This document shows, piece by piece, positions 2,477-8,524 of a DNA stretch of 64,000 nt (the stretch's first letter is position 1; each line of letters opens with the position of its first letter). Under the pieces are notes generated by a model. The model was not told where the DNA came from and ran no database searches. It saw nothing but the letters and a program-made list of their open reading frames with translations. The DNA comes from Leptolyngbya sp. FACHB-261 (GTDB taxonomy: Bacteria; Cyanobacteriota; Cyanobacteriia; FACHB-261): positions 248,001-312,000 of the forward strand of contig NZ_JACJPL010000018.1 in the NCBI RefSeq assembly GCF_014696065.1. Reading direction: 5' to 3'. Both the position numbers and the translations under genes were made by a program.

Positions 2477-4939
2477 TTAGCTACGGGTGCCATGAGGCTT
2501 ATGGACCGAGAGGGCAGCACTGGGATAGCGAATCCGCTGGTGGTTGTGTTGTTTCCAGACCCGTACGAATACGTCGGCGATCCGGGGCATTTCTTCCCTT
2601 TTGAGGCCAGAATCGACCAATTGCTGATCTTGCCAGCGAGCTTTAAGAATCTTGTTGACCATGCTTAGAGCTTCTTCATCGCTGGCTTCCTTCAGCGAAC
2701 GCAGGGCAGCTTCACAGGAGTCAGCTAGCATGACAATTCCCGTCTCACGCGACTGAGGAATGGGTCCGTCATAGCGAAAGTCTGATTCTTGAACTGGGCC
2801 CAGCTGTGCTAGGTCTGGATCGGCGGCTAAGCGTTCGCGGGCTTGATGGTAGAAGTAAGCGATCAACATCGTGCCTTGATGCTCGGGAATAAAGGCACGA
2901 ATAGCTGTAGGTAAACTGCAACGACGAGCCATCACTAGCCCTTCAGAAACGTGCTTTTTGATGATGCGGGCACTCTCGTAGGGGTCGTTAATCTCGTCGT
3001 GTTTGTTGGGCCCTCCCATCTGGTTCTCGATGAAGCCTAGAGGGTCGTGGATCTTGCCAATGTCATGGTAGAGCGTACCTGTTCGCACCAGCTCTACATT
3101 GCAACTGAGTTCTTGGGCTGCCGCCTCTGCCAGGGTCGCTACATAGAGAGTGTGTTGGAAGGTACCAGGCGCCTCGGTTGCCAAGCGCTTAAGCATGGAC
3201 CGATTAGGATTAGCGAGCTCAGCAAGGCGGATTGGGGTTACCAGATCGAAAGCTTGTTCGAGGTAGGGGCTAACTCCCAGGGCCACAACACTCCAGAACA
3301 GACCCGAAAGCGCGTGGGCAGCAGGCGTTAACCAGCTGAAGCCACTCCCTTGGAGTAACAAACTCACAATTAGATAAGTGCTGCCCTGGGTTAGGCCAAT
3401 GCCAATACCCAATCGAGCCAGCTCCTCTCTTGACCGCAGACGACCCGCGATCAGAACTGCAACTAGGCTGCCTGCCAATACGGGCATGAGGCCAACAGCC
3501 GATACCTCAATGCCCATCGGTAGGAGTGAGGTCAACAGCACCACCACGGTTGTTCCTAAGGCTGAGCCGTAGAAGCTAGCTGCCAACAGGCCTACGGCTG
3601 GCAGACAGGTATAGGCTGGACCCACACTCCAGGCAATCGTTGGTACACTCAAGCTCAGCAGTAGCACCAATAGATTGTCTCGCAGCCGCATTGCTGGGCG
3701 AATACGAATTTGCAGAGTCCAGAATAGGGCTACAGCACCACCGACTAGCATGCTCAGGCCAGCGAGGCCAGCCCAGTTGATTTGGCGCTGGGTCAGACTA
3801 AAGTGATCCAGGATCAGGAAGTCTTGATCGCTGATCGGCTCTGCTGCCCTTACGATTAGCTCGCCTTTACTCACCTCAACGTAGATTGGCTCCACTTTGC
3901 TGGCGGCTTGCTCCGCCTGCACCTGGCTGCGCTCTGAGTCCACGACCAATGTGGGCTGTAGAGCGCTCAGCACTAAACTGGCAGCTTGATTTTGAACGGG
4001 TCCCGGTGGCAGGCTATCGAGCTGAGCCAGTACCGCGTTGCGTTGCAGAGGTTCTGGTAGACCTGGGGGGATACCTGCTGCAAGTAACCGACGGTTTGCC
4101 TGCCAGACACCCTGCTGCACCTGTTGCCACTGGTCATCGCTCAGGTCAAACAAAACAGGGGTATAAGCAGAGCCAGGCAGTTGATCGAGAGCAGCCAGAG
4201 CGCGCTGATAACGACTGCGAGCCTGCTGAATCTGCTCAATGACCTGGTTCAAATTGGGGTTGCCGTTGCCTGCTACCGCTCGAAGCTGCAGACGGCTAAG
4301 TTCGCCAGCCACATGCAGTTGCAGCACAGAGGAACTAGCGCTTAGCTGTTGATTTAGTTGACCAAGCTGACGGAGTAGAGGATTAGTCAGCCGAGCATCA
4401 ATAGAGGTATTGAGTTGTTGCTGCTGGCTCAAGCGGCGGCTCAATTCCAAAACAGCTAGCCATTCCCACTCAGGGGCCGAGCGCAAGTAACGCTGGCTGC
4501 TAGTCGACAGCAGGGTTGGCTCTAAATAGGGATAAGCGCCAAGCATTTCTCGCAGGCTATTCCCCTCTAGCAGCCGTTGACCTAAGTCAGTCGTAATAGC
4601 TCGGTTAGCCGTCTCATCCACCCGCAAAACCTTGACCGATTCAGTGCGTGCCGCTTCACGCCGGGCTTGGGTTGCACTTGAATCTAGAATCCGAGCACCT
4701 TGGGGTGCGTACCAAGTTTGAGGGGATGGGGTTCCACTCGTGAGTTTTGGCTCGTTGTAGAAGCGATGGCCAATGCCACCGGTCAGGCTGGTGACAGCCA
4801 AAATTGCTAGAGCAACCCGGCGAGAACGGCAAGGCCGTAGTTGAGCCAAGGCATTCTGGGGTCCACGCTCTTGTGAACGCGCCATAAAATGGCTAAACCA
4901 CTGACTAAAAGACCGGGTCAGCGGCAGTCGAGTCCACAT
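2477..4939 (-). CDS. pgpH: 7TM receptor-type HD-domain phosphodiesterase (PgpH family)
   Basis: This 820-residue membrane protein has the PgpH order. A short cytoplasmic Arg-rich start and one helix (about 45-62) lead to a long extracytoplasmic 7TMR-HDED domain (about 70-390), a bundle of about seven helices (395-590) and a cytoplasmic HD domain (about 610-780). The HD signature is visible as FQHTLYVATLAEAAA followed by LYHDIGKIHDP, giving H...HD, with later conserved PEHQGT and RYDGPIPQSRE. In Listeria and other bacteria this family degrades cyclic di-AMP; in cyanobacteria the same substrate is likely, since DisA-type cyclases are common there, but that is inference. It is transcribed away from the small membrane protein gene at 5042. 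The gene name is assigned by family resemblance. Confidence 0.92.
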   Translation of the reverse strand: MWTRLPLTRSFSQWFSHFMARSQERGPQNALAQLRPCRSRRVALAILAVTSLTGGIGHRFYNEPKLTSGTPSPQTWYAPQGARILDSSATQARREAARTESVKVLRVDETANRAITTDLGQRLLEGNSLREMLGAYPYLEPTLLSTSSQRYLRSAPEWEWLAVLELSRRLSQQQQLNTSIDARLTNPLLRQLGQLNQQLSASSSVLQLHVAGELSRLQLRAVAGNGNPNLNQVIEQIQQARSRYQRALAALDQLPGSAYTPVLFDLSDDQWQQVQQGVWQANRRLLAAGIPPGLPEPLQRNAVLAQLDSLPPGPVQNQAASLVLSALQPTLVVDSERSQVQAEQAASKVEPIYVEVSKGELIVRAAEPISDQDFLILDHFSLTQRQINWAGLAGLSMLVGGAVALFWTLQIRIRPAMRLRDNLLVLLLSLSVPTIAWSVGPAYTCLPAVGLLAASFYGSALGTTVVVLLTSLLPMGIEVSAVGLMPVLAGSLVAVLIAGRLRSREELARLGIGIGLTQGSTYLIVSLLLQGSGFSWLTPAAHALSGLFWSVVALGVSPYLEQAFDLVTPIRLAELANPNRSMLKRLATEAPGTFQHTLYVATLAEAAAQELSCNVELVRTGTLYHDIGKIHDPLGFIENQMGGPNKHDEINDPYESARIIKKHVSEGLVMARRCSLPTAIRAFIPEHQGTMLIAYFYHQARERLAADPDLAQLGPVQESDFRYDGPIPQSRETGIVMLADSCEAALRSLKEASDEEALSMVNKILKARWQDQQLVDSGLKREEMPRIADVFVRVWKQHNHQRIRYPSAALSVHKPHGTRS

Positions 4940-6064: not shown

Positions 6065-8524
6065 ATGTCCACCCGCGCTGACCCTCCCTGGCACGACCTA
6101 GATGCTGCTCAAGTCCTAGCCCTGCTCGAAACCCGGCCCGAAGGATTGAGCAAACGGGAAGTGCGGCAACGGTCACGTCAGCAGCAGGGTTCCCCGTTGA
6201 GTCCTTCTATGCCTGGCCAAGGTAGGTTGCTTCGACGCGGCCTAACCACCCTTAGCCTTGAGCTTCGGCGTCCCTCTATCGGGCTTCTGATAGCAGTCGC
6301 CGCTTTTGAATGGAGCAGCCAGCGTGACTCTATAGCGGGTCTCCTGCTGGGCTTCGCAGGGGTGCAAGTCCTACGCCGAACTCTTCTGGAGCTGTGGGGC
6401 CAAAGCCTAGTGATTTCTAGCAGAGCGAACTTAACACCACAAGCTCGGGTGCGACGCGAACAGCAGGTTCAGCTGTTACCGGCTAGTGAGTTGGTTAAGG
6501 GAGACATTATTCTGCTAGAAGCAGGAGACTACGTTGCCTCTCAAATCCGTCTGCTGGCAAGTACAGACCTAAAGATTTACGGTTCTGAACAGACTTTGTC
6601 CTCACCTCAGCAAAGCCCTCCCCTGCTCGATCGCCCTGTTTCAGCAGACCAAACTAATTTGGTAGCACCTGGTAGTGTCATTGCCAGCGGTCAGGGACTG
6701 GGGGTTGTGATCACTCCCTCTGAAGCTGCCCTGGCACCTGTCGCTCAGCCTCCGGAGTTACTGAAGCCGGTCAGGCAGATCCAGCGCTGGGCCAGCTGGG
6801 GAGTTATGCTCGCCATTGCCCTTCTACTATTCCGAGCTGTAGCTGTACCGGTTGGCAACACTGAAGCCGCCCTTGTCTTTCTGGCAGCGCTGGCAGCAGT
6901 GAGCTTGCCAGAAGAGTTAGTTAGCGCTGCTAAGCTGAGTTTGAGCCTAACGCTACGACGGCTCGCACGACGAGGTTTACGGTTACGCTCTTTGAGTGAA
7001 TTGGCAGCCCTAAGCCAGGTCAATGTTTGTTGCAGCACTATCGCTCCTCTTGGTCAAGCCGAGTTGCGCCTGAGTGAGCTGTATGTGCCCGACCGAAGCC
7101 TAGGGCTAGACAGTATCCAGCCTGACGATCCTCAGGTGCATCAGTTGTTATTGGTTGGCACCTTAGTCAGCTCTGTGGACTCTAACCTGGAGTTAGGACA
7201 ATCGATGGCTGCTCCGCTCCTGGTTGCAGCGCAACGGGTAGGTATCGTTCCGGCCCAACTACCAGAACAATTTCCTCAGATTGCAGCCACGCCTTCTAGT
7301 CCTTATGGTCTGAATGTCACTCTGCACCAAAACACTGAACCTAAAGCAGAGTTGAATAGCGACACCAGTTTTGCTTGTCTTCAAGGACCGCTCCAGCAAG
7401 TATTGCCGCTCTGTCAAGCTTATTGGCGGGCGGGTGAGGGAGTATCTCTGGGAGCAGATTTCCAAGCATCTATCGAGAAGACCGCTCAACGGATGAGCCG
7501 CTGGGGGCTCCGGGTGCTTGCCATCGCTACAGCCCCAAGTGCCACCAGCCTCAGTTCAGCCCTCTGGCCCGAAGGAGCCATTTTTCTGGGCTTAGCTGGC
7601 TTTGAAACCTTTAACCGAACCAGTCAACAGGAGCTCACCCGGGTTTATGCCCGATCAGAACTGAGGTTGCTATTTGTAGAATCAGCCTCAGTTTCTCAAA
7701 CCGTGCTGGGCTTGCAAGCTGAGGGGGCACGCGTGGCCCTACTGGGCAGTCAGTTGGCTGACATTACAGCTATGCAGCAGGCCCATCTGAGCCTGGCTCT
7801 TAAATCAGGGGGTGCGGATGCCGTTCGCGTTCAGGCCGCAGCCGTCCTCTCGGATATTAGTGACTTAGTGAGGTTTCCCCGAGCCGTACAAATGGCTCAG
7901 TCCGCTCAGCGCCTTGTCGAGAGCATTGTCTTCAAGCTGCTTTCAGGCCAGTTGGGACTGTTGCTGTTAGTTGGTTTAACCAGCTTGACCCATCTGCCCT
8001 GGCCTTTCTCAACCAGCCAATTGTTCTTGCTAGCGCTGCTCAGCTTGGGGACAGTCGACCTAACGCTAGCCTTTGAGCTAGGCGAAATGCGACGGCAAAA
8101 GCAACTTGGCTCCCTCAAGCGATTCAGTTCTGACTTCATCCTGGGAGTTACAGTCATTGCTCTGAGCTTAGGCCTCGTGAGCTATGCCATCTTTCGCTTG
8201 AGCTATCAAGGCAAAATCATCCAACTCGACCATGCCCGCACCCTTACCGTCTGCACAATCCTGTGGTTTCAGTGGCTGGGGGCCGTGGCTAGTCGAGATG
8301 TTCGACGCTCTCTTTTGCAGGTTCGCACTTATCGAAATCCAGCTCTGGTTCTGAGCTTATTGCTAGCAGCTCTGATTAGTCCCCTTCTGGTCTACTTGCC
8401 CACCTGCCAAGTTGCCTTCGCATTTGAGCCTTTAAGGGTCAGTGACTGGCTAATCACTCTGCTGCTCGGCAGCACAGCTATCTGGATTCGGGAGATTTTT
8501 AAAGCGTTTGCATACAACGACTGA
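6065..8524 (+). CDS. Degenerate P2-type ATPase, probable pseudoenzyme
   Basis: The 819-residue reading frame has the full plan of a P2-type cation ATPase: an N-terminal cation-ATPase domain (WHDLDAAQVLALLE), helices M1-M2 (about 70-115), an actuator region with LVKGDIILLEAGDYV, M3-M4 (about 235-300), the large cytoplasmic loop, and six C-terminal helices. The catalytic signatures are gone. The phosphorylation loop ICSDKTGT reads VCCSTIAPL, with Thr325 in place of the Asp. TGES is replaced near residues 177-181, KGA reads QGP (440-442), the TGD motif reads VES, and GDGxND reads GSQLAD (561-566). The M6 NLVTD ion site reads ALLSL. The M4 Pro-Glu (282-283) is kept. The uninterrupted frame and neighbour-like composition argue against a decaying pseudogene. 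Function is unknown; a scaffold, sensor or regulator of a true pump is possible. Confidence 0.88.
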   Translation: MSTRADPPWHDLDAAQVLALLETRPEGLSKREVRQRSRQQQGSPLSPSMPGQGRLLRRGLTTLSLELRRPSIGLLIAVAAFEWSSQRDSIAGLLLGFAGVQVLRRTLLELWGQSLVISSRANLTPQARVRREQQVQLLPASELVKGDIILLEAGDYVASQIRLLASTDLKIYGSEQTLSSPQQSPPLLDRPVSADQTNLVAPGSVIASGQGLGVVITPSEAALAPVAQPPELLKPVRQIQRWASWGVMLAIALLLFRAVAVPVGNTEAALVFLAALAAVSLPEELVSAAKLSLSLTLRRLARRGLRLRSLSELAALSQVNVCCSTIAPLGQAELRLSELYVPDRSLGLDSIQPDDPQVHQLLLVGTLVSSVDSNLELGQSMAAPLLVAAQRVGIVPAQLPEQFPQIAATPSSPYGLNVTLHQNTEPKAELNSDTSFACLQGPLQQVLPLCQAYWRAGEGVSLGADFQASIEKTAQRMSRWGLRVLAIATAPSATSLSSALWPEGAIFLGLAGFETFNRTSQQELTRVYARSELRLLFVESASVSQTVLGLQAEGARVALLGSQLADITAMQQAHLSLALKSGGADAVRVQAAAVLSDISDLVRFPRAVQMAQSAQRLVESIVFKLLSGQLGLLLLVGLTSLTHLPWPFSTSQLFLLALLSLGTVDLTLAFELGEMRRQKQLGSLKRFSSDFILGVTVIALSLGLVSYAIFRLSYQGKIIQLDHARTLTVCTILWFQWLGAVASRDVRRSLLQVRTYRNPALVLSLLLAALISPLLVYLPTCQVAFAFEPLRVSDWLITLLLGSTAIWIREIFKAFAYND

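Follow-up and report, generated by a model that had tools for sequence, protein, structure and literature searches.

An intact P2-type ATPase-like gene in Leptolyngbya sp. FACHB-261 encodes a putative pseudo-pump without the catalytic motifs

Among 9,634 P-type ATPases surveyed in UniProt, 99.77% carry the DKTGT phosphorylation motif, and the 22 sequences without an intact DKTGT differ from it by single point changes (PMC3896382). The human protein TMEM94/ERMA departs further: its phosphorylation motif reads DKQGI, TGES is missing and GDGVND has become GSSANL. It has been claimed to be an Asp-dependent Mg2+ ATPase (PMC13322241). A cryo-EM study of TMEM94, in turn, could detect no ATPase activity and described a buried lipid (PMC12134183). 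Our literature search turned up no bacterial pseudo-P-type ATPase. Here we describe a cyanobacterial gene whose product aligns with P2-type cation pumps along its entire length and in which the catalytic motifs of those pumps are gone together.

The gene lies in a window of 64,000 nucleotides, the whole stretch of DNA analysed here, and we refer to its product as P0001 (Table 1). The frame runs from an ATG to a stop codon with 819 codons open and no internal stop, and in alignment the protein is homologous end to end with P2-type cation pumps in the same frame throughout. Pfam matched the E1-E2_ATPase family (PF00122) at residues 124-303 (8.4e-11, 42 bits against a cut-off of 28.1) and Cation_ATPase_C (PF00689) at residues 646-815 (4e-19, 69.5 bits against a cut-off of 27.3), and no Pfam model matched the P and N (hydrolase) domains. 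The top NCBIfam model was the PMR1-type Ca-ATPase TIGR01522 (E 6e-38), with 130 bits against a cut-off of 798 bits, and the nearest PDB sequence was the Listeria Ca2+-ATPase LMCA1 (6zhh, 3.7e-29). Judged by the homology of its A domain and C-terminal membrane domain, P0001 is a member of the P-type ATPase superfamily, P2 type.

Table 1. Features of the P0001 gene and its immediate neighbours, in window coordinates. Motif rows name the P0001 residues and the pump columns in which they fall.
Feature	Position	Strand	Residues	Evidence
P2-type ATPase-like pseudo-pump P0001, 819 aa	6065..8524	+		ORF, Pfam, NCBIfam, PDB match, pump alignment, predicted fold
A-domain GD kept (ELVPGD to ELVKGD)	6500..6505	+	146-147	alignment
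TLSS in TGES columns; dephosphorylation motif lost	6593..6604	+	177-180	alignment
M4 PEELV in PEGLP columns	6908..6922	+	282-286	alignment
CS-TIAPLG in CSDKTGTLT columns; phospho-Asp lost	7031..7054	+	323-330	alignment
QGP in KGA/KGS columns; N-domain nucleotide-site Lys lost	7382..7390	+	440-442	alignment
FVES in MITGD columns	7673..7684	+	537-540	alignment
GSQLAD in GDGVND columns; first Gly and last Asp alone kept	7745..7762	+	561-566	alignment
M5 SGQLG in SNIGE columns; ion-ligand Asn/Glu lost	7943..7957	+	627-631	alignment
M6 FLLALLSLG in LWLNLVTDG columns; ion-ligand Asn/Asp lost	8024..8050	+	654-662	alignment
HAD hydrolase, REG-2-like (TIGR02252), divergent neighbour of P0001	5213..6016	-		Pfam, NCBIfam
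DUF3318, convergent neighbour of P0001	8544..9206	-		Pfam

We aligned P0001 to 29 canonical pumps; its own genome supplied two of these, other genomes of the class 20, and the remaining seven come from elsewhere. As the initial annotation had it, the actuator GD is retained, TGES, KGA, TGD and GDGxND are all replaced, and the M6 NLVTD site reads ALLSL. That annotation missed a deletion in the P domain: directly after FVES, and before the GDGxND position, about 53 pump columns are absent, which amounts to an in-frame loss of ~50 residues. It had also described the phosphorylated Asp as replaced by Thr325. The Asp is indeed lost, but its column is a one-residue gap and T325 sits in the Lys column. 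Further along, the TGDGVND of the pumps becomes LGSQLAD. The M4 segment keeps the P, E and L of its motif and has lost the helix-breaking second Pro and the Gly; the glutamate retained in PEEL is a cation ligand that stays, while the Asn, Glu and Asp ligands of M5 and M6 are gone. The P domain is weakly aligned and the register within it is uncertain; no register can restore DKTGT, TGD, TGES or GDGxND, since the P0001 sequence does not contain a single one of these strings.

Of the 104 aligned columns that are near-invariant among pumps (at least 95%), P0001 keeps 36; control pumps, each scored on its own near-invariant columns, keep between 62% and 97%, the lowest value being that of L100, the most diverged of the real pumps. 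The loss is uneven: of the columns that are at least 90% invariant, the A domain keeps 53%, the largest share, and M5-M10 keep just 21%.

In P-type ATPases the motifs missing here are needed for the Post-Albers phosphorylation cycle. Having lost the phospho-Asp, GDGxND, the dephosphorylation loop and the N-domain Lys, P0001 would, on these biochemical grounds, be unable to run that cycle. It is very improbable that the protein is instead an atypical active ATPase whose catalytic residues have migrated, as some authors argue for TMEM94/ERMA. ERMA, with DKQGI, no TGES and GSSANL, is claimed to be an Asp-dependent Mg2+ transporter (PMC13322241), and P0001 does retain R483, in the N-domain RVLA, together with the final Asp of GDGxND. 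Unlike ERMA, however, it has no Asp anywhere in the phosphorylation loop, and both TGD and ~50 P-domain residues are missing.

An assembly or sequencing artefact, in which a normal pump had been frameshifted or joined into a chimera, is scarcely credible. Nothing beyond the missing homologues described below speaks for it. Against it, the 819-codon frame is pump-homologous throughout, and the changes are scattered substitutions with no shifted block; the 6.95 Mb genome, in 36 contigs, is 97.7% complete with 0.98% contamination, and the composition of the gene is like that of its neighbours. The open frame of normal composition reported initially is borne out, with GC at codon positions 1/2/3 of 0.65/0.47/0.53 (means of 0.62/0.43/0.53 for the other ORFs of the window) and a codon usage score of +0.052 in frame and -0.02 to -0.03 in the wrong frames. 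When the genome's own pumps were allowed to decay neutrally in simulation to 25% identity, they acquired 16-43 stops, 28 on average; P0001 has 0. Eight hydrophobic segments are called in the protein, seven of them in membrane regions and one in the A domain, and the neutral-decay controls keep an average of 3-4 hydrophobic membrane segments against the seven of P0001. These indirect tests all point to a protein that was held to its coding function while most of its divergence took place.

We searched for relatives of P0001 in several sets of sequences. No orthologue was found in ~390 genomes of the same class queried with full-length P0001 and again with its last 510 residues, in 386 genomes drawn from the phylum (every one listed is again from that class), in three other orders or on plasmids, or in two peptide scans of 84,980 species genomes. 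The large searches scored the best 2-3 candidates per genome and the peptide scans detect close relatives only, which means that they might overlook an orthologue that has diverged. The source genome is the sole member of its family and order among the genomes searched, and the absence therefore partly reflects sampling. Elsewhere, the best matches to P0001 share ~25-32% identity with it, and DKTGT is present in every complete match and in every one that can be read over the motif. The sole exception among the retrieved pump loci is L021, a contig-truncated frame in which DKTGT was not found and GDGVND is still there. Thus the orthologues sharing the motif loss that the initial annotation had looked to did not appear in the class, phylum, plasmid or 84,980-genome searches. 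The initial annotation had named a lack of orthologues as grounds for refutation, and by that yardstick a conserved pseudoenzyme is not established from the sets searched.

In a maximum-likelihood tree, the end branch leading to P0001 measures 9.46 and the median branch 0.46, which makes it ~20 times as long as those of other pumps. The branch is too long for the parent clade to be resolved: placement with the C28 type (p-AU 0.31), with L102/103/105 (0.14) and with the L109 group (0.075) was in no case rejected. A branch of this length is explained by relaxed constraint as readily as by repurposing. It is conceivable, though unlikely, that P0001 is a relic, a former pump copy that is decaying and has been too recent or too lucky to acquire stops or frameshifts. 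The lack of orthologues, the extreme branch, the large P-domain deletion and the erosion of the conserved M5-M10 columns would all suit such a history, and in the decay simulation some replicates still lacked stops at identities as low as 95%, so selection may have ended recently. Yet at ~78% amino-acid divergence the frame is still open, no indel has shifted it and codons are used normally, which argues that most of the divergence accumulated under coding constraint.

We modelled P0001 with AlphaFold2, using an input alignment of 16 true pumps. In the model (pLDDT 75.3, pTM 0.63) the strands of the A domain and the helix bundle are present and the P-domain sheet is reduced, and Foldseek and VIA-align matched it to SERCA/SPCA at a Z of ~40 over ~790 residues; for SERCA 4h1w, Z is 40.6 over 790 residues with an rmsd of 7.0. 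A single-sequence model reached a pLDDT of 38 and is uninformative. The P-type fold anticipated from the sequence is thus what structure prediction gives. Because the input alignment consists of true pumps, the prediction shows that P0001 is compatible with a P-type fold (the three domains A, P and N, and ten transmembrane helices) and is not independent proof of one, and the ten-helix P2 architecture proposed initially holds to that extent.

A membrane core of this kind might let a substrate through independently of ATP, the cytoplasmic domains acting as its gate. The retained M4 PE(E)L, helix layout and membrane segments would suit a passive or gated transporter, but the cation ligands of M5, M6 and elsewhere are now hydrophobic or small residues, and we know of no passive P-type carrier family that would lend this idea support; we consider it improbable.

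The source genome carries two complete canonical P2 pumps, C28 (905 aa) and C31 (951 aa), with DKTGT and GDGVND intact, so pumping is covered elsewhere than by P0001. P0001 shares 22-23% identity with them over ~790 residues, against 40% between the two pumps. The C28 pump (L080, at ~93117-95342 of contig C28) has NMVSS in M6 where Ca2+ pumps have NLVTD, resembling the NMVNS of its relatives L101 and L117, and its sequence hints that the pump may be specific for a cation other than Ca2+. In residue composition, lysine makes up only 1.6% of P0001 (3-4% in the genome's own pumps), and leucine (18%) and serine (9.9%) are high.

Around the gene, a divergent intergenic stretch of 48 bp separates its upstream end from that of the REG-2-like HAD hydrolase, whose nucleophile motif is DAVGTLF. 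We saw no sign of a functional link between the two, and the idea that this neighbour supplies a split P domain was rejected as unsupported, the protein being a normal REG-2-like HAD that is divergently transcribed. On the other side, DUF3318 loci in six other genomes had no P-type ATPase and no other window neighbour genes nearby, and thus no operon partner is indicated for P0001. Scans for promoters and terminators stayed at chance level, and Rfam reported no family at gathering score over the whole window (1-64000). Farther upstream, on the minus strand, 2477-4939 encodes an 820-aa 7TMR-HD protein (7TMR-HDED, 7TM and HDIG HD domains), which by domain order we take to be a PgpH-like cyclic-di-AMP phosphodiesterase, and a 215-aa ORF at 1780-2427 matched no Pfam or NCBIfam model.

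We favour, with a probability of roughly 0.55, the reading that P0001 is a protein-coding, lineage-specific pseudo-P2-ATPase that most likely acts non-catalytically. It would derive from a P2 cation pump of which the A and N domains, a P domain of reduced size and the membrane part with its ten helices survive; gone are the phospho-Asp, the GDGxND that coordinates Mg, the TGES dephosphorylation loop, the lysine of the N domain and most cation ligands. Such a protein could serve as a membrane binding protein, perhaps as the partner or regulator of another membrane protein; alternatively, a ligand or lipid may be held in the retained membrane core. The initial annotation had proposed a maintained non-pumping role. 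An intact, motif-less gene whose frame and composition look maintained agrees with that proposal, and the conserved clade that it implied was not shown, with no orthologue found; a sensor, scaffold or partner role is thus something that we infer. A pseudoenzyme is the best reading of what is a single sequence. More tentative, and in our estimate somewhat short of an even chance, is the fuller claim that a bacterial P-type ATPase has become a functional non-pumping regulator or ligand/lipid scaffold with all of its catalytic motifs erased, a counterpart of TMEM94. If this is true, the P-type scaffold would be usable without catalysis in bacteria, a point that bears on the current dispute over TMEM94/ERMA; the value of the finding hinges on relatives or a phenotype.

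Among known systems, P0001 resembles the P2A (type IIA/PMR1-SPCA/LMCA1) Ca2+-ATPases in its length, its A-P-N domains and its ten helices, and differs from them in lacking the catalytic motifs and the M5/M6 ligands, in the ~50-residue P-domain deletion and in an identity of only 22-27%. The C28 and C31 pumps belong to the same superfamily but keep DKTGT and GDGVND. With the point-mutated ATPases P0001 shares a DKTGT that is not intact, although in P0001 all the motifs are gone together. TMEM94 was absent from the 60 PDB sequence matches and the 50 fold matches listed for P0001. It keeps its Asp in DKQGI and is an established animal protein, whereas P0001 has no Asp, a shortened P domain and no orthologue found. 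TMEM94/ERMA is nevertheless the nearest known parallel: both have P-type architecture, both have lost TGES and in both GDGVND is altered, to GSSANL and GSQLAD, a likeness in the pattern of loss.
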